In this document: positions 19,640 through 44,997 of the stretch, one piece after another
How positions within the stretch are numbered: the first letter of the stretch is position 1
How the letters are laid out: each line of letters opens with the position of its first letter
Assembly (NCBI GenBank): GCA_016870115.1
Contig: VGCH01000001.1
Span: forward strand, 248,001-312,000
Source of the DNA: Alphaproteobacteria bacterium
GTDB lineage: Bacteria; Pseudomonadota; Alphaproteobacteria; Reyranellales; Reyranellaceae
Reading direction: 5' to 3'
DNA length: 64,000 nt
The notes under the pieces: model-generated
The model's database searches: none
What the model was told of the DNA's origin: nothing
The model's input: the letters and a program-made list of their open reading frames with translations, nothing else
Translations under genes and position numbers: made by a program

Positions 19640-20806
19640 TCAGGCGTAGGGGTCGGCGGCGTCGCGCATTCCGTCGCCCATGAACTGATAGGCGAGGATC
19701 ACGAGGATCACCGGAACGACCGGCAGCATTAGCCACCAGTTGACGGCGACGACATTGATGTCGGTCGCCTCGTTCAGCAGCACGCCCCACGAGGTGATGG
19801 GCGGCCGCAGACCCAGACCGAGGAACGACAGTGCCGTCTCAGCGAGGATCATTGAGGGAATCGACAAGGTGGCCGAAGCGATCAGGTGGCTCATGAACCC
19901 GGGCAGAAGATGCCGGCCGATGATGCGCGAGGGCTTGGCACCCATCAGCTGAGCGGCCACCGCGTAGTCCTCCTCGCGCAGCGCCAGCAGCTTGGAACGA
20001 ACGGCGCGCCCCAGGCCGGGCCAGTCGAGCAATGCGAGGATGAGCGTGATGCCGAAATAGACCAGCAGAGGCGACCAGGTCACGGGCAGGGCCGCCGATA
20101 GCGCAAGCCAGAGCGGCAGATGCGGGAAGCTGCGGATGATCTCCGTCACCCGCTGGACCACGTTGTCGATCCAGCCGCCGTAGTACCCGGCGAGCCCTCC
20201 CAATACGAGCGCGAGCGCGAACGACAGCACGATGCCGATGACACCGATGGTGAGGGAGATGCGCGCCGCGTAGACGATGCGCGAGAACATGTCCCGACCC
20301 AGCCGGTCGGTGCCGAGGAAGAAGAACGTGCCCTCCGTGGGCGGACAGACGAACCGGAACGAGCCCTCCACCAGCCCCCAGAACTGATAGGTCTCGCCGC
20401 GGCAGAAGAAACGCAGGCTCTGCGGCTTGGTGAGGTCCTCGGTGTAGACGCGCTGCAGCGTGTCGGGGTCGCGCTGCATCTTCAGTGCGTACACGAACGG
20501 CGCACGCAGCTCGCCCTCATGAAACAGGTGGACCGACTGCGGCGGCGCGAAAATGTGACGGATGTGGCGCGTATGCAGGTCGTAGGGCGCGATCCATTCG
20601 CTGATCAGCGTCGAGGCATACATCAGCAGCAGGAACACCGCTGAGACAACGGCCGGCCGATGACGGCGGAAGCGCCACCACATCAGCTTCCATTGGCCGG
20701 CCATGTAGAATTTTTCCTGCTCCGCCGTCAGACGATCGGCGATGTAGGGGTCCCAAGGCTCGCGGCTGACGTAGTGCGCGGTGCGGGCGGGCGGGGCGTC
20801 GGTCAT
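19640..20806 (-). CDS. Oligopeptide-type ABC transporter permease (OppC/DppC family)
   Basis: 388 residues, longer than the usual ~300 because of a ~100-residue periplasmic insert between TM1 and the core (from about HIFAPPQSV to [10 protein letters not shown]). The core motif [20 protein letters not shown] and the EAA loop ([21 protein letters not shown]) contact the ATPase. It forms the channel with the OppB-like protein encoded 7 bases upstream. YejE-like permeases share a long N-terminal part. The substrate is unknown. Confidence 0.9.
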
Positions 20807-20813
20807 GGGCGCC

Positions 20814-21812
20814 TCACTTTTCCGCCGTCGCGCCGAGCCGGATCCGGGGATCGAGCGCGGCCAGCAACAGGTCGGAGATCAACGTGCCGATCACGGTCAG
20901 CACGGCAACGAACAGCAGGAAGGTCGCGGCGAGATTCACGTCCTGGGTCTTGAGCGCGCCCAGCAGCATCGGCCCGGTGGTCGGCAGCGATAGCACCACG
21001 GAGACGATGACCGAGCCCGAGATGACTTCGGGCAAGAGGTTTCCGATGTCCGCCACGAACGGATTCAGCGCATGCCGCAGCGGATACTTGATGAGCAGCT
21101 TCATCGGCGGCAGCCCCTTGGCGCGACCGGTGACGACATACTGCTTCTGCAGCTCGTCGAGCAGGTTGGCGCGCAGGCGACGGATCATGCCGGCCGTGCC
21201 GGAGGTGCCGATCACGATCACCGGAATGATCAGATGCTGCATGACCGAACTGACCTTGCCCCAGCTCAGCGGCTTGTCGATGTACTCGGGATCCATCAGG
21301 CCGCCGATCGACAGGCCGAAATAGACCTTGCCGACATAGAGCAGCACCAGCGCCAGCAGGAAGTTCGGCACGGCGAGGCCGACGAAGCCGATGAACGAGG
21401 CGATGTAGTCGCCGGCCTGGTACTGATGGGTGGCGGCGTAGACGCCGATGATGAAAGAGACGATCCAGATGAAGGCGATGGTGCTCACCTCCATCACCAT
21501 CGTGAGCATCAGCCGCTCGCCGATCAGGTCGCCAACCGGCACCGTGTCCTGGCACGACAGGCCGAAGTCCCACTGGAACATGCCCGCCACCCATTCGAGG
21601 TAGCGCTGCCAGAGCGGCTGATCGAGGCCGTAGAGCGAGCGCAGCTCGTCGGCGCGCCGCAACGCGTCGGGATCGCCGCGCGAGAGCAATTCGTCGATCT
21701 GCGACGTGACGCAATCTCCCGGCGGCAGATCAACGATGACGTAGACCAGCGCGCTGATCACGAACAGGGTCGGGATCATCAGCAGCACGCGGCGGGCGAT
21801 GTAGTTCAGCAT
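20814..21812 (-). CDS. Oligopeptide-type ABC transporter permease (OppB/DppB family)
   Basis: 332 residues. It begins MLNYIARRVLLMIPTLFVIS with six TM helices; an EAA-type loop (YVVTGRAKGLPPMKLLIKYP) precedes the last helices. The soluble insert after TM1 (DCVTSQIDELLSRGDPDALR) is typical of a long-loop subgroup. The start at 21812 follows the ATPase stop by 2 bases. Confidence 0.92.
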   Translation of the reverse strand: MLNYIARRVLLMIPTLFVISALVYVIVDLPPGDCVTSQIDELLSRGDPDALRRADELRSLYGLDQPLWQRYLEWVAGMFQWDFGLSCQDTVPVGDLIGERLMLTMVMEVSTIAFIWIVSFIIGVYAATHQYQAGDYIASFIGFVGLAVPNFLLALVLLYVGKVYFGLSIGGLMDPEYIDKPLSWGKVSSVMQHLIIPVIVIGTSGTAGMIRRLRANLLDELQKQYVVTGRAKGLPPMKLLIKYPLRHALNPFVADIGNLLPEVISGSVIVSVVLSLPTTGPMLLGALKTQDVNLAATFLLFVAVLTVIGTLISDLLLAALDPRIRLGATAEK

Positions 21813-21814
21813 GG

Positions 21815-23791
21815 CTAGAACGCCCCCGCCGTCGCACGCACGAAGTGGCCCGGCGTGACCTCGACCCAGTCGAGGGGCGTGGTGCCGGTATCGGTGAAGG
21901 GCCGCGGCCAGGCGTCGGGGATCGAGGCCTTGCCTTCCATCAGGGCAGCAAGGTCGAGCCGCTTGTCGGGATCGGGCTCCGGCACCGCCGAGAGCAGCGC
22001 CTGGGTGTAGGGATGCACCGGATTGCGGAACAGTTCGCCGGACGGCGCGAGCTCCACCAACCGGCCGGCGCACATCACCGCGATCCGGTCGGCGATGTAG
22101 TCGACCACCGCGAGGTTGTGCGAGATGAAAAGGTAGGTGAGGCCAAGTTGGCTCTGCAGGTCCTTCAGCAGGTTCAGGATCTGCGCCTGGATCGACACAT
22201 CGAGCGCGGAGACCGGCTCGTCGCAGATCACCATGTCGGGCCGCAGCGCCAACGAGCGCGCGATGCCGATGCGCTGGCGCTGGCCGCCGGAGAAGGAGTG
22301 CGGATAGCGGTTGAGGTGGCGACGATCGAGCCCGACCATCTCCATCAGTTCGCTGACCATCTCGCGCCGGTACGCCTCGTCGCCGATCCCGTGAATGATC
22401 AAGGGCTCGACCAGGATATCGTAGACCGTCATGCGCGGATTGAGCGAGCCGAACGGGTCCTGGAAGATGAACTGGAGTTTCCGACGGAAGCCGTTGAGCT
22501 CCGGCCCGGAGAGGCCCAGCACATCGACCTTGCGACCCCAATCGTCATAGACGATGCCGCCGCCGGCCGCCTTCAACGCCGGATCGGCGGTGATCGCCCG
22601 CATCAGGATCTTGCTGAGCGTGGTCTTGCCGCAGCCCGACTCGCCCACCAGACCGAGGCACTCGCCGCGGCGGACGTCGAAGCTCACGTCGTTCACCGCC
22701 TTGATCTCGCGGGTCGTGCCGCCGCCCAGCAGCGACTCCATGAAGGTGTCCGCCTTGCGCACGCGATAGGTCTTGAAGAGATGGCGCACGTGCAGGATCG
22801 GCGCCTGCGAGTCGAACCCCGGCGCGGGCTCGATGGCGGCCTTCTCCTTCAGCAGATGCCCGGTGGCCGCGGTGATCTCGCGGATCGGCTGCAGCCGCTC
22901 GCCGGGCGCCATGTCGAAGCGCGGCACCGCCTTCAGGAGCGCCTTGAGATAGGGATGCTGAGGGTCGCGGTAGATGTCGCGCAGGTCACCGCTTTCCACG
23001 ACCTTGCCGCGGTACATCACCACCACGTCGTCAGCGACATTGGCGACCACCCCAAGATCGTGGGTGATCATCAGAAGAGCCATGCCGAGCTCTTTCTGAA
23101 GATCCTTCATCAGGCGCAGGATCTGCGCCTGGATGGTGACGTCGAGCGCGGTGGTGGGCTCGTCGGCGATGAGCAGCGCCGGCCGGCACACCAGTGCCAT
23201 CGCGATCATGGCGCGCTGGCGCAAGCCGCCCGACAACTCGAACGGATAGGTCTTGAGCGCCCGCTTCGGGTCGGGAAAGCCCACCATGCGCAGCATGTCG
23301 TGGGTCAGCTCGTCGATCTCGGCGCGGCCCATGCGCTTGCCCGACTGGCCCGCCGCTTCCGCGATCTGGTCTCCCAACGAATGGATGTCGCTCAGCCGAC
23401 CGCCATGAAGCTGGACCGCCTCGCCGATCTGGTCACCCACGGTGTGCAGGGCCGAGAGCGACGTCATCGGCTCCTGGAAGATGATCGAGATGCGGCCGCC
23501 GCGAATGGTCCGCATTTGGGGGCCGAGCCGATCGAGCTTGGCGATGTCCACGGGCCCGCCTGTGCGGCGTGGGTCGTTGAACAGGATCGAGCCCGACGGA
23601 ATGCGGGCGGCGCGCGGCAGCAGGCCCATGATGGCTTGGCTGCACACTGACTTGCCCGACCCCGACTCGCCGACCAGCGCTACTGTGCCGCCCGGCGGGA
23701 TGGCGAAGGAGACGTTGTCGACCGCGCGCAGCACGCCGTCATGCACGCCGAACTCGACGGTGAGATTGTCGACGCGCAGCAGCTCGTTCAT
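21815..23791 (-). CDS. Fused dual ABC ATPase of oligopeptide importer (OppD-OppF type)
   Basis: 658 residues with two nucleotide-binding domains in one chain. The first has Walker [13 protein letters not shown], signature [15 protein letters not shown] and Walker [13 protein letters not shown]; the second has [27 protein letters not shown] and [12 protein letters not shown]. Each carries the C-terminal Opp-type extension ([30 protein letters not shown]). All catalytic residues look intact. The ATG at 23791 overlaps the upstream small membrane protein gene (ATGA). No periplasmic binding-protein gene lies next to it. Confidence 0.94.
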
Positions 23792-24276
23792 GCCGGCAGC
23801 GGCTCCTCGACCGGGATATCCATGGCGCGGAGGTTGGCGCGGGTGGCGGCCGACAGCTCGACGCCCGACGCGGCGGCCGCCCGATGGGCGCCCAATACGA
23901 TGTCGCGAAAGCCCTCGAGGTGCGAGTCGATACGCACCCAGCGCGTGTCGGTGGACCCCACCGCAAGCTGCATCCAGCCGTCGGAGCGGTCGCGCTTGGT
24001 CGAATAGTAGCTGAGCTTCATGCGGTTGAGACGGGCCCAGGCGATGAAGGTTCCCATCGGACCTTCGACCCGCAGCCCATCGGGTTCCAACAGAAAGCGT
24101 GTGGTGTGGCGCAGGGCGGTGCGTACGCCGAACAGCGCGAACAGGATCACCAGTCCGGTCAGGATCCAGCCCAGCCAGCGACCGAGATCGAGCGCCACCA
24201 GCGGCGCGCCGCACATCAGCACGCCCGCGCCTGCCCGCAGGTAGTCGCCCAGCAAGATCCGCTGCGAGTAGCGCAT
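23788..24276 (-). CDS. Small membrane protein with PH-like cytoplasmic part, function unknown
   Basis: 162 residues starting MRYSQRILLGDYLRAG. Two hydrophobic segments (AGAGVLMCGAPLVAL and LGWILTGLVILFALFGV) precede a beta-rich soluble part (FLLEPDGLRVEGPMGTFIAW, RLNRMKLSYYSTKRD) resembling bacterial PH-like membrane proteins. The start is 11 bases after the deacetylase-like gene and the end overlaps the ABC ATPase, tying it to both sides of the cluster. I cannot assign a function. Confidence 0.75.
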   Translation of the reverse strand: MRYSQRILLGDYLRAGAGVLMCGAPLVALDLGRWLGWILTGLVILFALFGVRTALRHTTRFLLEPDGLRVEGPMGTFIAWARLNRMKLSYYSTKRDRSDGWMQLAVGSTDTRWVRIDSHLEGFRDIVLGAHRAAAASGVELSAATRANLRAMDIPVEEPLPA

Positions 24277-24287
24277 TTCGGCCGCGT

Positions 24288-25061
24288 TCAACCCCGCGCC
24301 TCCCGTGACGCCAAGAACAATTCGTGCGCCGGCCATATCCGCGTTCCCGGCGCCGCCATGACCCGCCCCCACAGCGAGACTAGGAAATCCCACGTCGCGT
24401 CGTCCATCGCAAGATGGTGACTGAGGACCCCGATCGGCTCCGGCGGCCCGGTCCGCGCGGCCGACAGAGCCCCGACCAGCGCGGTCAGAGCCCGGTCGAG
24501 CCCCACGAAGCCCCGTCCGGGGCTGTGCCAATCGACCGGGTCCAGGTGGGTGTTGACCTGCACCAGCCCGCGCACCGGCTGCGGTCGCGCGCGCCGCCCG
24601 AAGGTGGAAAGCCCGCGAAAGCCGATCTCCGGCAGTGTGGGCACCAGAGCCGGCGCGATGCGGTTCCATGGCGGCACCAGGACCGGCAGCGCCTTGGCCG
24701 CGAACTCCCGCTCCAGCGCGAGCCAGCCGGTGCCGAGTTCGCCCAACACCAGCATGGCGGGCCGCTCCGCACCCAGCTCGACCTTCTTGGCCGGGGGCGC
24801 GGCGTGGTTGACGTGGGCGTAGCCGTGCTGGAGCACCCCCACGTCCGGCTCCTCGCCGAGCCGTGCGGCCAATGCCGCGTCCGCCCGCGCCGGCACGACC
24901 GCAAGCGCGAGCGGCAGCCCGAGGTTCCGGCGCAGCGCGAGCAACCGCTCCAGCGGCGCGCCGACGGTGGCAGCATCGTCGTCGCGCCACCAGAGATCGA
25001 CCGTGCGCCCAAGGTCGCGCCACCGCGCGATCTCCTCGTCGAGGGCGGACCAGGAACTCAC
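24288..25061 (-). CDS. Polysaccharide deacetylase-like protein
   Basis: 257 residues from a GTG that overlaps the glycosyltransferase stop (GTGA). The NodB-like pattern is recognisable: the acidic motif WWRDDDAA near residues 24-31 (catalytic Asp and metal Asp), HGYAHVNHA (metal His-x3-5-His) and the C-terminal SHHLAMDD. NodB-family enzymes remove N- or O-acetyl groups from polysaccharides or modify lipid-linked sugars. No signal peptide is visible, so a cytoplasmic glycolipid precursor is a possible substrate. Position among glycosyltransferases supports that idea. Confidence 0.78.
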   Translation of the reverse strand: MSSWSALDEEIARWRDLGRTVDLWWRDDDAATVGAPLERLLALRRNLGLPLALAVVPARADAALAARLGEEPDVGVLQHGYAHVNHAAPPAKKVELGAERPAMLVLGELGTGWLALEREFAAKALPVLVPPWNRIAPALVPTLPEIGFRGLSTFGRRARPQPVRGLVQVNTHLDPVDWHSPGRGFVGLDRALTALVGALSAARTGPPEPIGVLSHHLAMDDATWDFLVSLWGRVMAAPGTRIWPAHELFLASREARG

Positions 25062-26230
25062 GCGTCGCTCCGCGCGCGATGGGCGGCGAGATGTCGCGTC
25101 AGCAGTTCGGCTGTGCGCGCGACCCCATCGATATCGCATTGCGCCCGACCGGAGAGCGCGGGTGCCGCCCAGGCGCGATCGACAGCTGCGGCGAGGGTCT
25201 GGGGCGTGAGACTCGCCGGATCGGCCACCTCGACGAACCCCCGCTCGGCCAACGCGGCGGCGCGCGCGGCCTGCTCGGTCTGCGCGCCCTCGGCGAACGG
25301 CACGAGCACAGCGCGGCGGGCGAGGCAGAGTGTCTCGATGGCGGTGTTGTATCCCGCTTGCGAGATCGAGACGCACGCCCCGGCCAGCAGATGCGGGAAG
25401 TCCGTGCGGTGCCGCTCGATCACGATCCCTGGGCCCGCGTCCCGGCGAAGCGCTGCCAGCTCGGCATCCGGAAGGTTCGCGCCGGCCAGCAAGCGCCAGC
25501 GTCGGTTGGCGAGGCGGGTCAGCGGTCGGGCGGCAAGGGCCGCCACCAGAAGCGGAGCGCCGACCGCGCCGCCGCCGGCTGAAACCAGGACTTCGGCGTC
25601 GGGCGCCTCGTCGAGGCGATCGGGCCAGTCGGTCCGATCGACGACGTATCCGGTATGCACGGCGCGGTCCGCGAGGCGCGGCCAAGCAGGAAAGGTTCGG
25701 GCGAACGAAACCAGAGTCGGGTCGCCATGGATCAGCGCGAGATCGAACCAGCGCTCGAACGCTCCGAGCATCTCCTTGGTGCGCGCGGCTCGCGACGGGC
25801 GGCCGAGCAAGTCGCGCAACGACGCGACGACCAGCGGTCGCGCGCCGCCACTGTGCATCGCCTCCATCAGCGGATCGAAGGCCCACCGCATCTGGGTGCG
25901 CCCAAACGGATAGAGCTCGGTCATCACGATGTCCGGCGCCTCGGCACACAGCAATGCCACAAGTCGGCGACCACGATCGCTTCGGAAGTGATCGTCGAGT
26001 TCCGCGCCCGACGCGTCGACCAGAGACTTCACGGAGTTGTCGACGGCGCGCACCGGCGGAAGCTGGTGGAAGCGCGCGCGACCGAGCTCGACCGCCGGCA
26101 CCGGCGGCCCGCCCGACACCAGCAACACATCGAAACCTGCTTCTGCAAGACCGCGCGCCAGAATCGCGGCGCGGCGCAGGTGGCCAATGCCCAGCAGATG
26201 CTGGACGACAAACAGGACGCGCGCGGTCAT
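25058..26230 (-). CDS. MurG-like (GT-B) glycosyltransferase
   Basis: A 390-residue GT-B fold protein. The N-terminal glycine loop VVQHLLGIGHLRRAAILARG and C-terminal VLVSAGGGAVGAPLLVAAL and CVSISQAGYNTAIETLCLARRAV (donor-nucleotide binding) are typical of the GT28/COG4671-like group. It probably transfers a nucleotide-sugar residue to a lipid or glycan acceptor at the inner membrane. It overlaps the phosphatase and deacetylase-like genes by 4 bases at each end. Confidence 0.82.
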   Translation of the reverse strand: MTARVLFVVQHLLGIGHLRRAAILARGLAEAGFDVLLVSGGPPVPAVELGRARFHQLPPVRAVDNSVKSLVDASGAELDDHFRSDRGRRLVALLCAEAPDIVMTELYPFGRTQMRWAFDPLMEAMHSGGARPLVVASLRDLLGRPSRAARTKEMLGAFERWFDLALIHGDPTLVSFARTFPAWPRLADRAVHTGYVVDRTDWPDRLDEAPDAEVLVSAGGGAVGAPLLVAALAARPLTRLANRRWRLLAGANLPDAELAALRRDAGPGIVIERHRTDFPHLLAGACVSISQAGYNTAIETLCLARRAVLVPFAEGAQTEQAARAAALAERGFVEVADPASLTPQTLAAAVDRAWAAPALSGRAQCDIDGVARTAELLTRHLAAHRARSDA

Positions 26231-26838
26231 GCCGCCGCCCGATCGGTTTCCATCGGGATGTTGGCGCGCTCCAGCGACACGCCGCCCCCGGGCAAGGCAC
26301 GGAAAAGGTGGATCGCCGCGCGCTGGAACCGGACCGGCGGCTTGTCGGTCATGTCCCATCCCGTCGCGAGCGCCAAGAGCGTGCGCAGCACCGCCTTGTG
26401 GGCGACGACCAGCACCGGCGCGTCAGCGCGCACATGATCATCCAGCCACGACGCCACGCGCACCATCGCATGACGCGGCGACTCGCCGCCCGGCGGCGTG
26501 AAGTCGAGGCCGCGTAGTTCGTTCGCGAAAAACGCCTCGCCGCCGTCGCGCCGCAGGTCGGCGAGTGTGCGGCCCTCCCAGGCACCGAACGACATCTCGC
26601 GCAGACGCGAATCGATGGCCACCGGCGCCGTGGGGCCGATCAACTCGGCGGTGTGCCGCGCGCGAACGAGCGGGCTGGAAACGCGCGGCCAAGAGGTGGC
26701 GGGCGCGGGCACGCGCCAGCACCGGGCGAGCGCGATGCCTTCGGCGCTGAGCGGCGTGTCGGTCAGTCCCTGCAGGAGGCCGCGCGCGTTCCAATCGGTC
26801 GGCGCGTGTCGCATAGCCGCAAAAAGCTGCCCGCTCAT
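26227..26838 (-). CDS. Histidine phosphatase-family protein
   Basis: A 203-residue phosphoglycerate mutase-like phosphatase. The phosphoacceptor motif reads MRHAPTDWN (RHG becomes RHA, catalytic His retained). The second conserved Arg/Glu set is in SSPLVRARHTAELI and LREMSFGAWEGRTL, and the second His is in VLVVAHKAVLRTLL. It likely dephosphorylates a small metabolite, perhaps a sugar phosphate feeding the adjacent glycosyltransferases. It overlaps genes on both sides by 4 bases. Confidence 0.87.
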   Translation of the reverse strand: MSGQLFAAMRHAPTDWNARGLLQGLTDTPLSAEGIALARCWRVPAPATSWPRVSSPLVRARHTAELIGPTAPVAIDSRLREMSFGAWEGRTLADLRRDGGEAFFANELRGLDFTPPGGESPRHAMVRVASWLDDHVRADAPVLVVAHKAVLRTLLALATGWDMTDKPPVRFQRAAIHLFRALPGGGVSLERANIPMETDRAAA

Positions 26839-27998
26839 GGAGCGAGTCGCAAGCCGCAGCCGAGCGGCCGCAACACGGTGGAGAGAGAGCGCGCCGCGCC
26901 ACGCCAGTCATGAATCCGCGCCGCGCGCGTCGCCGCCGCCGCGCCGAACCCGGCGCGCTCGACCGGGTTGTCCAACAGTCGTCGCACCGCTGCCGCGAAG
27001 GACGTCGCATCACCCACCGGCACCAGCAGGCCGGTGGCACCATCGGCTACCACTGCCGGGACGCCCCCGGTGCGTCCCGCGATCACCGGCGTTCCCGCCG
27101 CCTGTGCTTCCAGCAACGCCATGCCGTAAGCCTCGTTGATCGCCGGCCAAAGGTGAAGGTCGGACGCGGCATAGACCGCGGGCAAGTTGGTTGCGGGAAG
27201 CGCGCCGAGCAGCGTCACGCGGTCGCCCAGCGGCGCCAGCGCTGATTCGACCTCGGCACGGGCAGGTCCGTCGCCCACCACCAGAAGTCGCCAGGGCCGA
27301 TCGAGCACCTGCGCGAGCGCCTCCCCCAGCACGCGGTAGGAGCTGAGCTTGTCGCGCGCCCGCATCATGGCAACGGCCGTGAGCCAGGGCGCAGCTGGAT
27401 CGAGGCTGTGACGTGCGGCCAGCATCGCGCGGTGCGACTCGCGCTGTCGCGCGGCGAGAGCGAAGGGAGCAGTGTCGACAAAGGGGTCGAGTTGGACCTG
27501 CCGGCCACGCGGTCGCAAACGCGGCGTCACTCCCGCCAGATCGTTAGGATTGACCGTAATCACTCGGTCGGCGACAGCCAACGCCCGCTCGACCGCGCGA
27601 TGGCCCACGCGCCATGGTCCCTGCGCGCGGCGCGGCGCGTGCGATGCCTCGGCGATGACGTAGGGAACATCAAGCGCACGGCAGACCAGCGGCCCGAGCC
27701 AATCGGGCTTGCGGTAGTAGCAATGGTAGGTGAACCAGAGATCGAACCGCTCTGGATGGCCGGCCGGCAAGGCACGCCAGCGGCGGATCAGGCGATCGGC
27801 TTGCGCACGCGCGCGGCGCTCGCTCCCGAGCGCTCTGTCGGGTGGCACGGTGCCCGGCGGCACGCGCGCGGCACGGGACCGGACGACACGGGCACCGAGC
27901 GACACCAGCAGCCGGCAGAGGCCGCGCGCCATCTCGCGGTCGCCCGATGGAACCGGATGGTCGGGCTCCTTCAGCGGGGCGTGAAAGAGCACACGCAT
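26835..27998 (-). CDS. Glycosyltransferase, GT4-like
   Basis: 387 residues starting MRVLFHAPLKEPDHPVPSGD. The GT-B C-terminal signature is clear: LLVVGDGPARAEVESAL, LGALPATNLPAVYAASDLHL and EAYGMALLEAQAAGTPVIAG (the EX7E motif that binds the donor), followed by TGLLVPVGD. The acceptor is unknown. It starts 4 bases after another GT4 gene and overlaps the phosphatase gene. Confidence 0.86.
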   Translation of the reverse strand: MRVLFHAPLKEPDHPVPSGDREMARGLCRLLVSLGARVVRSRAARVPPGTVPPDRALGSERRARAQADRLIRRWRALPAGHPERFDLWFTYHCYYRKPDWLGPLVCRALDVPYVIAEASHAPRRAQGPWRVGHRAVERALAVADRVITVNPNDLAGVTPRLRPRGRQVQLDPFVDTAPFALAARQRESHRAMLAARHSLDPAAPWLTAVAMMRARDKLSSYRVLGEALAQVLDRPWRLLVVGDGPARAEVESALAPLGDRVTLLGALPATNLPAVYAASDLHLWPAINEAYGMALLEAQAAGTPVIAGRTGGVPAVVADGATGLLVPVGDATSFAAAVRRLLDNPVERAGFGAAAATRAARIHDWRGAARSLSTVLRPLGCGLRLAP

Positions 27999-28002
27999 GG
28001 CC

Positions 28003-29265
28003 TCACTCGGCGGCGCGCGATAGCGGCATCGAGGGTCGCACGAGATCGGCGATGCGATCGACGCCGGTGTCGAACGAAAATCGCGCCCGCAGCGTCGCCC
28101 CCGCCTGGGCGCCAAGCCGTCCGCGCAGCGCGGGATCGGTGGCGGCGCGCTGAAGCGCGCGCGCCAGCGCCGGCGGGTCGGCTGGCGGCACGAGAAGCCC
28201 CTCGCGACCGTCGGCGATGAACTCGCCGATTGCTGCAGCATCAGTGGCAACCAGCGCCAGGCCCTGGTGCGCCGCTTCCATCAACACATTGGGAAGACCA
28301 TCGACGTCGCCGTCAGCCGCGATCTTGCTCGCCAGAACGAAGACATCGGCGCGCGCATAGGCAGCGAAGACGGCGGCCTGGGCCTGCGCGCCGTGCCAAA
28401 CGCAACGCGCGGCGATGCCCAGCCGCTCGGTATGCGCCCTCAGCGCATCACCCAGAGGTCCCGCGCCGATGTGATCGAAGCGCCAATGCAGTCCCACGGG
28501 CAGGAGCGCCAGCGCATCGAGAATGTCCTCGAAGCCTTTCTTGGCGACCCGTCGGCCGACCGAGAGAATGCGGATCGGATCGGCCGGATCGGACCCGTCG
28601 CGTGCCGCGCGCGGTGGTGGTGGTGGTGGCAGATGGGCGAAGTCGAGCCCGTGATAGATCAGCTCCAGTCGCGCGCCCTTGGGTGCCAGCGCCCGCAGCC
28701 GGTCGAAGCCGCGGCGCGTGCACGTCGTCAACGCGCGGCAGTCCGCCAGCTTCGCAGCAAGGTCGATGTCGGGTGTCGTCCAGATGTCCTTGGCGTGCGC
28801 CGATACCGTCCAGGGCAGCCCACGCATCAGCGCGGCGTAGCGCCCCACCGACGCCGGCGTATGGATGAAGTGGGCATAGATCGTCTCGATCGAATCCGGC
28901 ATCTCAGCCGCCAGCACGAGCGCCTGACCCCAGCGTCGCCGACGGTTGGCGGTGCGGTCCGCCGCCAGATCGCGCCGATAGGCGGCACGGGCTTGCGCAT
29001 AGCCGGGCAAGCGACGCGCGCGAAGCCAGGCCGCGAAGACCCGCGCCGGATCGTCTTTCAGATACTCAGGCAGATAGGTCACAGCGGCCCGCACGCGATC
29101 ATGCACGGGGTGGCGCAACGTGTCGGTCGGTTGGCGCAGAGACCACAGGCCGAGCTCGAGGCCGCGGGCTTCGAGACCGGCGATCTCCTGGGCGATGAAG
29201 GTTTCCGACAGGCGCGGCCAACCCTTCAGCACCACCGCCACGCGCGGGCTTCTCGACGCGCCCAT
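28003..29265 (-). CDS. Glycosyltransferase, GT4 family (colanic acid type)
   Basis: 420 residues. The N-terminus VVLKGWPRLSETFIAQEIAG is characteristic of colanic-acid/exopolysaccharide GT4 enzymes. HAKDIWTTPD, ILSVGRRVAKKGFEDILDAL and DGLPNVLMEAAHQGLALVAT (donor site) follow. A tract of six to seven prolines lies near residue 218, encoded by a GGT/ACC microsatellite at about 28612-28629; it may slow translation without EF-P. Sugar and acceptor are unknown. Confidence 0.88.
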   Translation of the reverse strand: MGASRSPRVAVVLKGWPRLSETFIAQEIAGLEARGLELGLWSLRQPTDTLRHPVHDRVRAAVTYLPEYLKDDPARVFAAWLRARRLPGYAQARAAYRRDLAADRTANRRRRWGQALVLAAEMPDSIETIYAHFIHTPASVGRYAALMRGLPWTVSAHAKDIWTTPDIDLAAKLADCRALTTCTRRGFDRLRALAPKGARLELIYHGLDFAHLPPPPPPRAARDGSDPADPIRILSVGRRVAKKGFEDILDALALLPVGLHWRFDHIGAGPLGDALRAHTERLGIAARCVWHGAQAQAAVFAAYARADVFVLASKIAADGDVDGLPNVLMEAAHQGLALVATDAAAIGEFIADGREGLLVPPADPPALARALQRAATDPALRGRLGAQAGATLRARFSFDTGVDRIADLVRPSMPLSRAAE

Positions 29266-29275
29266 GAAAACGATA

Positions 29276-30553
29276 TCAGACCCGGGCGCGGCCCGGCGGT
29301 GCGTCGACCGTCGCCAGAGCCGGCGCGGCGGCGACCGCCGTCGCGGGTTCGTCGAGCGGCGAGGGCCGGCGATGGGGATGCGCGCACTGCCGCGCCACCA
29401 GGCGCCAGACATTGCCGAGCCCATCGAGCAAGCCCGGGATGACGACGTCGCCCGGCAGGCCCTGCTGCGGCAACTGACGGAGCGCCGTCGCCATCACCTG
29501 CGGCTCGCGGCCACGTTCGGCGTCCAGCATCTCGATCAGCCCGGCGTCACGCGCCGCGCGGGCGCGGATGAACTGCTCCAGCCTTGGCCGGGTGCGCGGC
29601 ACGATCACCGCTCGTTTGTTGAAGGACAGGATCTCGCAGAAGGTGTTGTAGCCGCCCATCGCCACCACGCCGGCAGCGCGTTCCATCAAGGCGCCGAGAT
29701 TGTTGGTGAAGGTGAGCGTGCGGACATTGCGCAGCCGGGCCGCGCGGTCCCGGAAGGCGTCGCGCGCCGTCGCCGCCATGAAGGGGCCGAAGACGATCAC
29801 CGCGCCATAGGGAATGCCGCGATCGGTCTCGTAGGCCGAGAGAACCCAATCGACGAGATCGACGCCATCGCCGCCGCCGCCGGGCGTGACCAGGATGTAG
29901 GGCGAGTCCGTTTCGGCCGCTGCGTGCGGCACGTCGGCGTGGCGCGGCAACTCACGCCGCAGGTAACCCGTGAAGACCGTCTTGTGCCGGATCGACGGCG
30001 CGAGATCGAGCCCCTCCAGCGGGTCGTTGATCTGCGGCAGGCCATAGGTCCAGATCTCGTCATAGAGATCGCGCAACGCCGGCACGACGTTCTTGCGTTC
30101 CCACTCCGCAGCCAGTTTGGCGGGATCGTCCATCACATCGCGCAGGCCGAGCACCAGCGGCGTCCCGCGCTCTTTCAGGAGATGCAACGCCGGGCCGACC
30201 TCGCCGCGCAGGCCGAGCGGCTCCTTGTCGACGATGAACAGGTCGGGTCGGTAGATGTCGGCGGTGTCGCGGATGATGCGGCTGCGCATCTCAAGCGTAT
30301 GGCCGACATCGACCCGGAGGTTGGCCGAGTCGTACTCGCCGTTCAGCAGCTTCACCATGCCCGGCACGCGCACGAAATCGATGCCCGACCGGAACTCGTA
30401 GGAGCCGATCATCGGCGATCCGGAGATGATCAGCACCGAGACCGACTTGTCGGCTTCAGCGATGGCGTTGGCGATGGTGCGGCATCGGCTGACGTGACCG
30501 AGGCCGAACGAATCGTGGCTGTAGAGCAGCACACGCTTCTTGGTGCCGGGCAT
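29276..30553 (-). CDS. Predicted glycosyltransferase (COG4671-like, GT-B)
   Basis: 425 residues starting MPGTKKRVLLYSHDSFGLGH, with a good ribosome site (GGGGGGAG) upstream. The N-terminal GHVSRCRTIANAI loop and C-terminal ILVTPGGGGDGVDLVDWVL and VVAMGGYNTFCEILSFNKRAVIV resemble MurG-type donor sites. This is the first gene of the twelve-gene minus-strand cluster and faces the divergent ABC exporter gene across 172 bases. A second, more distant member of the group lies at 25.1-26.2 kb. Confidence 0.82.
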   Translation of the reverse strand: MPGTKKRVLLYSHDSFGLGHVSRCRTIANAIAEADKSVSVLIISGSPMIGSYEFRSGIDFVRVPGMVKLLNGEYDSANLRVDVGHTLEMRSRIIRDTADIYRPDLFIVDKEPLGLRGEVGPALHLLKERGTPLVLGLRDVMDDPAKLAAEWERKNVVPALRDLYDEIWTYGLPQINDPLEGLDLAPSIRHKTVFTGYLRRELPRHADVPHAAAETDSPYILVTPGGGGDGVDLVDWVLSAYETDRGIPYGAVIVFGPFMAATARDAFRDRAARLRNVRTLTFTNNLGALMERAAGVVAMGGYNTFCEILSFNKRAVIVPRTRPRLEQFIRARAARDAGLIEMLDAERGREPQVMATALRQLPQQGLPGDVVIPGLLDGLGNVWRLVARQCAHPHRRPSPLDEPATAVAAAPALATVDAPPGRARV

Positions 30554-30725: not shown

Positions 30726-33443
30726 ATGCAGCGCAATCTCTTTTCCTACATCTGGCGGCACAGCCGGCCCGAACAACTCGTCATCTTGTACCTCGTCGTG
30801 TTCGCACAGGTGGCGTATTTCATCTCGCTCAGCCTGCCCAAGGCGATCGTCAACAACGGAATCGAGGGCAAGGCCTTCCGGTCGCAGCCCACTGTCACGG
30901 TCCTGTCGATCGAGATCCCGCTGCCCGCGTTCCTCGATCTGGGCGCCGCATGGACGGTGTTCGAGGGCTTCGCAGTCGCGCAGTGGCCCTATCTCGTGGT
31001 GATGAGCTTCCTGTTCCTGCTGAGCGTGGTGGTGAACGGCCAGTTCAAGAAGACCATCAACACGCAGAAGGGGCGCATGGGCGAGCGCATGCTGCGCCGC
31101 CTGCGCTACGAACTCTACGAACGCATTCTGCGCTTCCCGCCGCAGCACTTCCGCAAGGTCAAGCAGGCCGAGCTCGCGACGATGGTGAACAACGAGGTGG
31201 AGCCGCTGGGCGGCTTCATCGGCGACGCCTTCGTGCAGCCGATGTTCCTCGGCGGCCAGGCGGCGACGGCGATCCTGTTCATCATGCTGCAGAGCTGGAT
31301 GCTAGGCATCGTGGTGATCGCGCTGCTGGCCGTCCAGATGGCGATCATCCCGCGGCTGCGCAAACCGGTGCTGGCGCTCGGCAAGCAGCGCCAGCTCACC
31401 GCCCGCCAGTTCGCCGGGCGCATTGCCGAGACCGCCGACGGTATCGCCGAGATCCGCGCCCACGGCACGGTGAACTACGAGCGCGCCGACGTTTCCGACC
31501 GGCTGGGTCGCATCTTCCGCATTCGCTTCGAGCTGTTCGAGAAGAAATTCGTCGCCAAGTTCTGGAACAACTTCCTGTCCCAGGCGACACCCTTCGCCAT
31601 CTATCTGCTGGGCGGATATTTCGCGATCAGCGGGCAGATGGACGTCGGTTCGGTGGTCGGCGTGCTGCTCGCCTACAAGGACCTGCCCTCGCCGGTGAAG
31701 GAGCTGATCGACTGGGACCAGCAGCGCCAGGACGTGCAGATCAAGTACGAGCAGGTGATCGACCAGTTCCAGCCCGAGGGCATGGTCGCGCCCGAGCTGC
31801 AAACGCTGCCGCCAGGCCCGATTCCGATGCTGGCCGGCGCCGTCGCGCTGTCGGGCGTGTCGGTCTCCGACGACGGTCAGATCAAGCTGCTCGATCAGGT
31901 CGCGCTGTCGTTCCCGCTCGGCGGCACGCTGGCCGTGATCGGCGGCGCCGGCTCGGGCAAGGAGGTGCTCGGCCAGCTATTCGCGCGACAGCAGAGGCCC
32001 GATTCGGGGACGATCCGAATTGGCGACACCGATTTCGCGACCCTGCCTGAGCCCGTACTGGGCGCCCGCGTTTCCTACATCGGCCAGGACACCTATCTCT
32101 TCCCGCTCAGCGTCCGCGACAACCTGCTCTATGGGCTGAAACACCGGCCGGTCGCCGATGCGGTCTACGCCGAGGATCGTCGCGCCGAACGCGAGCTGTT
32201 CCGCCGGGAGTCGCAGCGCGCCGGCAATCCGGATCTCGATCCGGCCGCCGACTGGGTCGATGCCGACCTCGCCGGCGCCGCCACGTCGGACGAGCTGTTG
32301 CAGCGCATGGCCGAAGCGCTGCGTTCGGTCGAGCTCGAGGACGAGATCTACCAGTTCGGCCTGCGCGGCACGATCGATCCGGCGCGCGACCCGGCGCTCG
32401 CCGAAGCGCTGCTCGCGGCGCGGCGCGCGCTCCATGAGCGGCTGCGTGAGCCGGCCTTCGCGCCCCTGATCGAGGGCTTCGAAGCCGCCCGCTACAATCG
32501 CAACCTCTCGGTGGCCGAGAACCTGTTGTTCGGCACGCCGGTGGGCAAGGCATTCGAGATCGACAACCTCGCGGGCAACGCCTACGCCCAGTCGATCCTG
32601 AAGAGCACCGGGCTGGAGGACGAGCTCGGCCGGATGGGCCTCTCCATCGCCGAGACCATGGTCGAGCTATTCTCGGGTCTCGCGTCCGACAATCCGCTGT
32701 TCGAGCAGTACAGCTTCATCTCCGCCGACGAGCTCCCCAACGTTCGGCTCCTGCTGCAGCGGCTGGGTGGCAAAGGCCTGGACGCCGTGCCCGCCGCCGA
32801 CCGGCCGCGCCTGATCTCGCTGCCCTTCCGCTACGTCGAGGCGCGCCACCGCCTTGGCCTGATCGACGACGCGATGGAAGACCGGCTCCTCGCCGCGCGG
32901 CGCGCTTTCGCCGAGGGTCTGCCGGCGGAGCTGCGCGCCAGCGTCGAGTTCTACGACCGCGAGCGCTACAACGGCGCCGCAACCTTGCAGGACAACATCC
33001 TGTTCGGCCGTCTGGTGTATGGCCAGGCGCAGGCCGAGGCCCGGATCGGCGCCCTGATCGGCGAGGTGCTGGACACGCTCGGTCTGCGCAACGCCGCGAT
33101 CGCCGTCGGCCTCGAGTTCAACGTCGGTGTCGGCGGAAAGCGCCTGCCGGCCGGGCAACGCCAGAAACTCGGGATCGCGCGCGCGCTCATCAAGCGGCCC
33201 CAGCTTCTCGTGGTGAACGAGGCGCTCGCGACCTTCGATTCACGAACCCAGGACCGACTGCGCGACAATATCCTCGCCGCCTGCGCCGAGCGCGGCGTGC
33301 TTTGGATCGCCAACCGCGCCGAACAGGCTCGCCCCTTCGCCGACGTTGCGGTGATGGACAAGGGCCGACTGGTCGGACGCGGCACCCACGACGAATTGGC
33401 CGCCCGCGGCGGCCCCTACGCCGATCTGATGTCGGGCGGCTGA
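30726..33443 (+). CDS. Enlarged ABC exporter with degenerate nucleotide-binding motifs
   Basis: 905 residues; half-exporters are usually ~600. The N-terminal ~330 residues form an ABC type-1 transmembrane domain (YLVVFAQVAYFISLSLPKAI; LRRLRYELYERILRFPPQHF). The nucleotide-binding domain is atypical. Walker A is GGAGSGKE (K412, but E413 where Ser/Thr binds Mg), Walker B is QLLVVNEALATFD (N831 replaces Asp, E832 kept), the signature is LPAGQ (807-811) and the switch His is N863. About 300 extra residues follow the Q-loop (SVRDNLLYG, 462-470) and carry two more such elements (SVAENLLFG, 595-603; TLQDNILFG, 753-761). It may be a weak ATPase, a regulated channel or a hetero-oligomer partner. It leads an operon with a cNMP-binding protein. 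Confidence 0.88.
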   Translation: MQRNLFSYIWRHSRPEQLVILYLVVFAQVAYFISLSLPKAIVNNGIEGKAFRSQPTVTVLSIEIPLPAFLDLGAAWTVFEGFAVAQWPYLVVMSFLFLLSVVVNGQFKKTINTQKGRMGERMLRRLRYELYERILRFPPQHFRKVKQAELATMVNNEVEPLGGFIGDAFVQPMFLGGQAATAILFIMLQSWMLGIVVIALLAVQMAIIPRLRKPVLALGKQRQLTARQFAGRIAETADGIAEIRAHGTVNYERADVSDRLGRIFRIRFELFEKKFVAKFWNNFLSQATPFAIYLLGGYFAISGQMDVGSVVGVLLAYKDLPSPVKELIDWDQQRQDVQIKYEQVIDQFQPEGMVAPELQTLPPGPIPMLAGAVALSGVSVSDDGQIKLLDQVALSFPLGGTLAVIGGAGSGKEVLGQLFARQQRPDSGTIRIGDTDFATLPEPVLGARVSYIGQDTYLFPLSVRDNLLYGLKHRPVADAVYAEDRRAERELFRRESQRAGNPDLDPAADWVDADLAGAATSDELLQRMAEALRSVELEDEIYQFGLRGTIDPARDPALAEALLAARRALHERLREPAFAPLIEGFEAARYNRNLSVAENLLFGTPVGKAFEIDNLAGNAYAQSILKSTGLEDELGRMGLSIAETMVELFSGLASDNPLFEQYSFISADELPNVRLLLQRLGGKGLDAVPAADRPRLISLPFRYVEARHRLGLIDDAMEDRLLAARRAFAEGLPAELRASVEFYDRERYNGAATLQDNILFGRLVYGQAQAEARIGALIGEVLDTLGLRNAAIAVGLEFNVGVGGKRLPAGQRQKLGIARALIKRPQLLVVNEALATFDSRTQDRLRDNILAACAERGVLWIANRAEQARPFADVAVMDKGRLVGRGTHDELAARGGPYADLMSGG

Positions 33444-33462: not shown

Positions 33463-33912
33463 ATGAACCTCAACCAGGAAGTCGAGCTTCTGAAGGGCGT
33501 GCCGATCTTTTCCAAGGTGGAGCCGGCCAAGCTGAAACTGCTCGCCTTCACCAGCGAGCGGCTGAGCTTCGGGGAGGGTCAGGAGCTCTTCCACCAGGGC
33601 GATCAGGGCGACGCGATGTACGTGATCCTGTCGGGTGCGGCCGACGTGCTGATCGACACGCCGGGCGGACCGATCGCCGTCGCCGAGCTCAAGCGCAACG
33701 GCTTTGTCGGCGAGATCGCGATCCTCTGTGACGTCCCGCGTACCGCCACGATCAAGGCCAAGGAGCCACTGACCACGCTCAAGATCTCCAAGGACATGTT
33801 CTATCGCCTGGTCGCGGAGTTCCCGCAGATGGCGATCGAGATCATGCGCGAACTGGCGCACCGGCTTGAGGACACCAACCAGAAACTGCGCGCGGCCACG
33901 AAGGCGGCATGA
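33463..33912 (+). CDS. Cyclic nucleotide-binding domain protein
   Basis: A 149-residue stand-alone CNB domain starting MNLNQEVELLKGVPIFSKVE. The phosphate-binding cassette reads GFVGEIAILCDVPRTATI, with the Glu that contacts ribose and the Arg that contacts the cyclic phosphate. No DNA-binding domain follows, so it is not a Crp-type regulator. It starts 19 bases after the exporter gene and overlaps the methyltransferase gene, suggesting cAMP/cGMP-dependent control of this transporter unit. Confidence 0.9.
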   Translation: MNLNQEVELLKGVPIFSKVEPAKLKLLAFTSERLSFGEGQELFHQGDQGDAMYVILSGAADVLIDTPGGPIAVAELKRNGFVGEIAILCDVPRTATIKAKEPLTTLKISKDMFYRLVAEFPQMAIEIMRELAHRLEDTNQKLRAATKAA

Positions 33913-44139: not shown

Positions 44140-44997
44140 GTGTCGTTGGGCGAGGGTCTGAAGGTCCGGTTCTGGGGCGTGCGCGGCTCGATCGCCTGCG
44201 CCGGCCCGGACTATGCGCGCTACGGCGGCAACACGTCCTGCATCGAGATCACCGCCGGCGGACGCCGGCTGGTGTTCGACGCCGGCACCGGCATCCGGCC
44301 GCTCGGCCAGGAGCTGGCGCGGCACGCGCCGCTCGATATCGACATCTATTTCACCCACACGCACTTCGATCATGTGTGCGGTCTCACCTTCTTCACGCCG
44401 CTGTTCGACAAGCGCAACACGGTGCGGCTGTGGGCCGGCCATCTGGAGCCGCCCCACACGCTGCATGATGTCGTGGCCAACGTCATGCAGGCCCCGCTCT
44501 ATCCGGTGTCCATGGACGTCTTCCAGGCGTCGGTGCGGTTCGACGGTTTCCATGTCGGCGACGTGCTGCACCCGTGCGACTCGATCGCGCTTCATACCGC
44601 GCGGCTCAACCATCCCAACGGCGCCACCGGCTATCGCATTGAGCATGGCGGGCGTGCCATCTGCTACATCACCGACACCGAGCACCGGCCGGGCGGCCTC
44701 GACCGCGCGATCGTCGAGTTGTGCCGCGGCGCCGACGTGATGATCTACGATTCGAGCTACACCGATGAAGAGTACCCGCGCTTCGTCGGCTGGGGCCACT
44801 CGACCTGGCAGGAGGGCGTGCGACTGGCCGACGCCGCCGATGTCGGCACGCTCGCGATCTTCCACCACGATCCCGCCCACGACGACGCCTTCATGGACCG
44901 GGTCGCCCGCGACGCCGCCCGCGCCCGACCCGGCCTCGCCCGATCCGGCCTGCCGCGCGTCGTCGTGGCGCATGAAGGCCTGACGCTGGCGCCGTGA
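44140..44997 (+). CDS. Metallo-beta-lactamase-fold hydrolase (phosphodiesterase-like)
   Basis: A 285-residue MBL-fold enzyme starting at GTG. The opening VRFWGVRGSIACAGPDYARYGGNTSC is a subgroup hallmark (quoted in two parts across strands 1-2); the metal motif is FTHTHFDHVCGL, with Asp in CYITDTEHRPGG and DSSYTDEEY and the final His near AIFHHDPAHDD. The subgroup includes cyclic-nucleotide and phosphoester hydrolases. Its position two genes upstream of a nucleotide cyclase makes a cyclic-nucleotide phosphodiesterase role worth considering, but this is inference. Confidence 0.83.
   Translation: MSLGEGLKVRFWGVRGSIACAGPDYARYGGNTSCIEITAGGRRLVFDAGTGIRPLGQELARHAPLDIDIYFTHTHFDHVCGLTFFTPLFDKRNTVRLWAGHLEPPHTLHDVVANVMQAPLYPVSMDVFQASVRFDGFHVGDVLHPCDSIALHTARLNHPNGATGYRIEHGGRAICYITDTEHRPGGLDRAIVELCRGADVMIYDSSYTDEEYPRFVGWGHSTWQEGVRLADAADVGTLAIFHHDPAHDDAFMDRVARDAARARPGLARSGLPRVVVAHEGLTLAP

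Follow-up and report, generated by a model that had tools for sequence, protein, structure and literature searches.

A class-wide alphaproteobacterial family of ABC exporter-like proteins with altered ATPase motifs and a linked cyclic-nucleotide-binding protein

Introduction

ABC exporters are usually taken to be driven by ATP, and discussions of natural degenerate ATP sites usually set them next to a site that works. Some ABC folds, such as SUR1/SUR2 and CFTR, serve as a regulator or a gated channel and not as pumps (reviewed in PMC7756269). Conserved departures from the canonical motifs, maintained under selection, have been described for TAP, TM287/288, MsRv1273c/72c and CFTR (PMC7756269). 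Association of an ABC exporter with a cyclic-nucleotide-binding (CNB) domain is also known: HetC of Nostoc is a peptidase-containing ABC exporter whose function requires its CNB domain, a domain that binds ppGpp in vitro (PMC10986499), and the CNB proteins of TIGR03896 are linked to bacteriocin exporters.

Here, we analysed a 905-residue protein encoded in a 64,000-nucleotide stretch of DNA from an alphaproteobacterium of the Reyranellaceae (hereafter, the window). It belongs to a family that shares the fold and the domain order of the type IV exporters TmrAB, MsbA, P-glycoprotein and NdvA, which gave the best Foldseek and sequence matches, but differs from them by altered A-loop, Walker A, signature, Walker B and (in the window) H-switch motifs, and by approximately 320 extra residues in the nucleotide-binding domain (NBD). 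Whereas TAP, TM287/288, MsRv1273c/72c and CFTR keep one canonical site, the family alters both site halves in one chain. SUR1/SUR2 and CFTR differ in that they still bind nucleotides, have no CNB partner and are eukaryotic. HetC resembles the family by its CNB domain on an ABC exporter; however, it has an N-terminal CNB domain, a C39 peptidase and an essential ATPase residue, whereas the family has lost the ATPase motifs and has its CNB domain either as a separate protein or at the C-terminus. Pfam found no C39 peptidase in the 905-residue exporter, which does not have the HetC-type architecture. The TIGR03896 proteins likewise combine CNB and ABC exporter, but the CNB protein of the window matched this family weakly (39.5 bits against a cut-off of 161), and exporter and genes differ. 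The cyanophycin-associated ABC transporter NF052233 is also an enlarged exporter; the NCBIfam match reached 75 bits against a cut-off of 880, and the member examined is extended at its N-terminus and not internally, while its GKST, LSGGE, DEA and AHR motifs are canonical, so that this assignment was rejected. Among openly accessible papers we found none on the exporter family or on CNB-ABC exporters with Walker changes, no experiment on any family member, and nothing on the family in connection with duplicated helical subdomains.

Materials and methods

To set the motif positions, we aligned the protein with three ordinary exporters encoded in the same genome, whose motifs are canonical (GKST or GKTT, LSGGQ/E, DEA and AHR). 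Residue counts refer to 140 distinct homologues, 135 full-length members or 71 (in some counts 72) divergent members.

Results

The gene, its predicted fold and its distribution

The gene is an intact open reading frame, as originally predicted, with an ATG start and no internal stop (Table 1). Pfam matched the exporter membrane domain (PF00664, 6.8e-17, residues 88-313) and the ABC ATPase domain (PF00005, 1.3e-16, split over two separated stretches), both above cut-off and with the transmembrane domain (TMD) preceding the NBD in one chain, as in type IV ABC exporters. An AlphaFold model based on 46 sequences had a mean pLDDT of 83.6; across the NBD and the greater part of the extra segment, most values exceeded 90. 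The best solved Foldseek matches of the model were TmrAB, MsbA and P-glycoprotein (E at most 1e-15). The predicted fold is that of a type IV ABC exporter.

All 76 genomes from the order of the window carry the gene, as do 131 of 385 genomes sampled across Alphaproteobacteria, and it was also found on replicons of Rhizobium, Sinorhizobium, Azospirillum, Ruegeria and others; the Sinorhizobium meliloti copy sits on pSymB. In the phylum-wide sample all matches fell within Alphaproteobacteria. Three members from the class and phylum samples (G408, G283 and G755) each showed one in-frame stop in the match, which could reflect a pseudogene, a sequencing error or a match overrunning the stop.

Table 1. 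Features of the exporter locus in window coordinates. Linkage was counted over 166 exporter loci, where short flanks lead to undercounting.
Feature	Position	Strand	Evidence
Polysaccharide-deacetylase-like protein	24291..25061	-	43% identity to annotated deacetylase of Mesorhizobium cluster; no Pfam match
Second GT28-type glycosyltransferase	25058..26230	-	PF04101; linked at 122/166 loci, partly cross-matches to the first GT28
Histidine phosphatase	26227..26838	-	PF00300, 2.4e-38; linked at 78/166 loci
GT4 glycosyltransferase	26835..28040	-	linked at 92/166 loci
GT4 glycosyltransferase	28003..29265	-	linked at 93/166 loci
Divergent GT28-type glycosyltransferase	29276..30553	-	PF04101; linked at 128/166 loci
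Putative pseudo-ATPase ABC exporter gene, 905 aa	30726..33443	+	PF00664, PF00005; class-wide family
Transmembrane domain, residues 1-360, best-conserved part	30726..31805	+	PF00664; omega 0.10, highest identity
A-loop position D382, acid for adenine-stacking Tyr	31869..31871	+	E 78, D 59 (acidic 137/140)
Walker A G406-GAGSGK-E413, acid for Ser/Thr	31941..31964	+	413: D 67, E 56 of 140
Repeat copy 1, residues 449-546: Q-loop strand, 'RDNLLYG', helices, 'FGL'	32070..32363	+	hhalign
Q-loop Q454, retained in the window protein but missing from many members	32085..32087	+	Q 80/140
Extra NBD segment, residues 476-795, seen only in the exporter family	32151..33110	+	HMM repeats, AlphaFold, genome search
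Repeat copy 2, residues 560-645: 'LLAARRAL..RYNRNLSVAENLLFG..GL'	32403..32660	+	hhalign; N599, R566 71/71
Repeat copy 3, residues 716-797, runs into signature: 'LLAARRAF..RYNGAATLQDNILFG..GL'	32871..33116	+	hhalign; N757, R725 71/71
Signature LPAGQ, residues 807-811	33144..33158	+	GG kept in 0/135
Walker B LLVVNE, N831, catalytic-type E832 kept	33201..33221	+	N 111/140; E or D 113/140
H-switch position N863	33312..33314	+	N 58, H 24, S 16, Q 12 of 140
Stand-alone CNB protein, 149 aa, without DNA-binding domain	33463..33912	+	PF00027, 9e-20, sole Pfam match
SAM methyltransferase PF12692	33909..34406	+	7.3e-60; linked at 119/166 loci

Conserved loss of the canonical ATPase motifs

The original prediction had read K412-E413, LPAGQ, N831-E832 and N863 as the motif residues of the ATPase domain, and the alignment with the exporters of the same genome placed them at the canonical positions: E413 corresponds to the Walker A Ser/Thr, LPAGQ to the signature, N831 to the Walker B Asp and N863 to the switch His. 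The claim that every key motif is altered proved truer still, since D382 occupies the A-loop Tyr position and an A-loop aromatic residue was present in none of the 135 full-length members. The 905-residue protein does not carry the motif set of a working ATPase, namely an aromatic residue in the A-loop, GK(S/T) in Walker A, LSGGQ, the Asp of Walker B and an H-switch.

The same departures recur among homologues, beyond what chance would give. Position 413 is acidic in 123 of the 140 and Ser or Thr in five; position 831 is N in 111, S in 10 and D in 9; and position 832 is E in 99, D in 14 and N in 9. The proposed conservation thus holds for the acid at 413 and for N831, and for N863 within near relatives only; members outside that group have H (24) or one of S, Q, G and D. 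The signature GG was absent from all 135 full-length members, 101 of which had none of the five core canonical states, and no member had more than two, so that homologues with canonical motifs, which would have pointed to local decay, were not found. A few members (L177, L121, L126, L152 and L107) have GK(S/T) or the Walker B Asp but are otherwise still degenerate, and in the deepest members (L172-L176) the P-loop lysine region is gone, with no GK. The loss of canonical motifs across the family is well supported and conserved.

Selection on the two domains

The gene is under purifying selection (omega about 0.17). Among close relatives, omega was 0.10 for the TMD, 0.24 for the N-terminal part of the NBD, 0.20 for the extra segment and 0.16 for the C-terminal part of the NBD, and values of 0.16-0.24 indicate that the NBD is not freely drifting. 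Identity among the relatives of the window was 77% for the TMD versus 60-69% for the NBD parts; for an ordinary exporter in the same relatives it was 77% for the TMD and 81% for the NBD. As a rule, TMDs diverge while NBDs remain similar (PMC7756269). The relatives of the window show the inverse of the normal exporter order.

The possibility that this is a normal exporter in local decay, a pseudogene in progress, which the deviating motif residues by themselves might suggest, is scarcely credible, because the frame is intact, all 76 genomes of the order carry the gene, and the same deviations are class-wide under purifying selection that extends to the NBD; the original view that the gene is not simply decaying was therefore correct.

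A repeat-bearing segment inside the NBD

The rest of the ATPase domain had been described as well kept. This needs qualifying: conservation is lower in the NBD than in the TMD, and the NBD contains a repeat-bearing insertion of approximately 320 residues between the Q-loop and the signature. Within it we identified two additional repeats of the stretch beginning at the Q-loop, which gives three copies ('ENLLFG'-type) in all. By hhalign, copies 2 and 3 matched each other with E=2.1e-16 over 79 columns, copies 1 and 2 with E=1.4e-6 and copies 1 and 3 with E=6e-5 (all single-comparison E-values). A motif of the type '(E/D)N-x-L-x-G', which in ABC exporters comes after the Q-loop, is kept in the three copies, with N466 in 69 and N599 and N757 each in 71 of the 71 divergent members; R566 and R725 are likewise present in all 71. 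The secondary structure predicted by AlphaFold also shows a recurring strand-helix pattern in the extra segment. Separately, an R-H-R-L stretch (residues 707-710, 32844-32855) within the segment is strictly kept, in at least 90% of divergent members.

When half-transporters, which have about 570 residues, are aligned by Foldseek, the alignments stretch over about 910 columns, hence the extra segment has no counterpart there. A domain known from elsewhere was considered and rejected: across 299 genomes searched, the segment turned up solely inside members of this family, and Pfam gave no match beyond ABC_tran. In ordinary exporters, the Q-loop/helical region couples the NBD to the TMD. The extra copies may do the same.

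A linked cyclic-nucleotide-binding protein

The original prediction had suggested that the neighbouring CNB protein might gate the exporter, and a link between the two is strongly supported by conserved adjacency and gene fusion. A CNB match occurred at 159 of the 166 exporter loci. In ten loci the CNB domain is fused to the exporter C-terminus, judging by the protein tails, and Pfam confirms six of them; the fused proteins form one or two tree groups, implying one or two fusion events. Fusion together with adjacency is good evidence that exporter and CNB protein act together, and a sensor partnership between them is well supported.

The phosphate-binding cassette of the CNB protein is intact (GE-IAILCDVP-R-TAT, that is, GE-x8-R) and has the Glu and Arg of PF00027, and across the family the G was conserved in 131/131, the E in 119/131 and the R in 131/131. 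The best PDB relatives were mainly the regulatory domains of PKA and PKG, which bind cAMP and cGMP, and the ligand may be a cyclic nucleotide of the cAMP/cGMP type or, as the ppGpp binding of HetC suggests, a different nucleotide. A role as a transcription factor was rejected, as Pfam found no helix-turn-helix of CRP/FNR type in the 149-residue protein. The S. meliloti CNB protein (L179:16809-17273), of similar length, is annotated as a Crp/Fnr family transcriptional regulator; given the short, helix-turn-helix-free protein of the window, this annotation is probably misleading.

Gene neighbourhood

The genes flanking the exporter and the CNB gene (Table 1) include four for glycosyltransferases, which, with those for the histidine phosphatase and the deacetylase-like protein, are transcribed divergently from the exporter. 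The linkage is preserved across much of Alphaproteobacteria. The start of the methyltransferase gene runs over the stop codon of the CNB gene in a four-base overlap (33909-33912), which suggests translational coupling. On pSymB of S. meliloti and in Mesorhizobium, the exporter and CNB genes lie in a cluster with genes for glycosyltransferases, a nucleotide sugar dehydrogenase and adenylate/guanylate cyclases, along with a polysaccharide lyase in S. meliloti and a deacetylase instead in Mesorhizobium. Nucleotide cyclases also occur near some other family members. From these neighbours, the substrate of the exporter may be a glycan or glycolipid.

Several further genes were observed in the window. 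A gene with a nucleotide-cyclase domain (PF00211, 46280-47179, + strand) lies 13 kb from the exporter, a link that is weak on its own as the genome has about 14 cyclase genes. Approximately 11 kb downstream there is a metallo-hydrolase gene (44140-44994, + strand); genes for cyclases and for a metallo-hydrolase are found directly at the exporter cluster of Mesorhizobium. The glycosyltransferase block is bordered by genes for a peptide-type ABC importer, which comprises permeases and a double ATPase (19640-24000, - strand). Both rhizobial clusters contain a similar importer set, and the double-ATPase gene is 55% identical to that of Mesorhizobium. A link to Clr in S. meliloti was also considered but found no backing: the paper on the Clr regulon concerns a different pSymB cluster, nodP2-smb21248 (PMC5498481), and the guess that SMb20808-20813 is the S. 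meliloti copy led nowhere.

Discussion

We consider it about an even bet that the protein is a pseudo-ATPase, an ABC-fold membrane component of a glycan pathway under the control of a cyclic-nucleotide sensor. The broader proposal is that of an undescribed class-wide ABC-fold family, a cyclic-nucleotide-gated ABC transporter in which ATP chemistry was lost, CNB took control and the NBD was rebuilt by triplication of the Q-loop/helical segment; for this we would put the chances a little below even. In such a complex, the exporter, presumably a homodimer, would have NBDs that lack ATP chemistry and are rebuilt with the partly triplicated segment, and the NBD pair would act as a relay between sensor and membrane domain. 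The CNB protein, sometimes fused to the NBD C-terminus, would bind the cyclic nucleotide and dock on the NBD, and docking would alter the state of the transmembrane domain. Under the control of this ligand, the whole could act as a conduit for, or a regulator of, a glycan or glycolipid made by the divergently transcribed glycosyltransferases.

Loss of ATP chemistry is favoured because the family has jointly lost the canonical A-loop, Walker A, signature, Walker B and H-switch states, because the Walker A Lys itself is Arg in many divergent members, and because the TMD is conserved more strongly than the NBD; the exporter probably does not hydrolyse ATP. A sensor-controlled glycan system is favoured by the linkage and fusion of the CNB protein, its intact cassette, the rhizobial cyclases and the linked glycosyltransferases and methyltransferase; gating of the exporter by the CNB protein would fit this pattern. 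On the other hand, the Walker A lysine is kept in 105 and the catalytic-type Glu in 97 of the 135 full-length members, more than expected for a pocket without a role, and the mutual avoidance of an acid at 413 and Asp at 831 could reflect a rewired Mg site.

The retention of K412 and E832 in most members, and of the P-loop glycines G406 and G411 in 64 of 72 divergent members each, would also agree with ATP being bound but barely hydrolysed, as a structural glue at both sites, in the manner suggested for the single degenerate site of heterodimeric exporters, with the CNB protein as regulator; conserved degenerate sites have been described as ATP scaffolds (PMC7756269). We regard this as a serious alternative but an unlikely one, in that the adenine-stacking aromatic is absent from all 135 members, with an acidic pair in its place, an acid beside the P-loop lysine should repel phosphate, and the signature GG is lost in all.

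A second alternative takes the avoidance of the two acids at face value: the Mg carboxylate would have moved from Walker B position 831 to Walker A position 413, and the largely retained E832 would hydrolyse ATP in an active, rewired ATPase. An acid at 413 with N831 is the commonest pairing (38 of 71 divergent members), and D831 was found mostly where 413 is non-acidic, in 6 of 17 divergent members versus 3 of 54 with an acid at 413 (Fisher p=0.0045). However, this association ignores phylogeny, the A-loop, the signature and often the H-switch are lost as well, the Walker A Lys is replaced by Arg in 24 of 71 divergent members, and 11 divergent members have neither acid. Such an enzyme is improbable, though still a serious alternative.

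It is very doubtful that the protein forms a heterodimeric exporter as its degenerate half, with a separately encoded partner contributing a working ATP site. Heterodimers with one degenerate half are common (PMC7756269), and ordinary exporters exist in the genome, but neither the conserved neighbours that were checked nor the two annotated rhizobial clusters included a second exporter. Moreover, this one chain has changes on its Walker side as well as on its signature side, so that no partner could restore a canonical composite site.

If the reading of a sensor-controlled pseudo-ATPase is true, the family would show re-purposing of the ABC fold, and the question of an exporter free of ATP hydrolysis would become directly testable. 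Presence of the gene on pSymB makes genetics easy in the model symbiont S. meliloti. The finding also points to an unstudied surface-glycan pathway linked to cyclic nucleotides.
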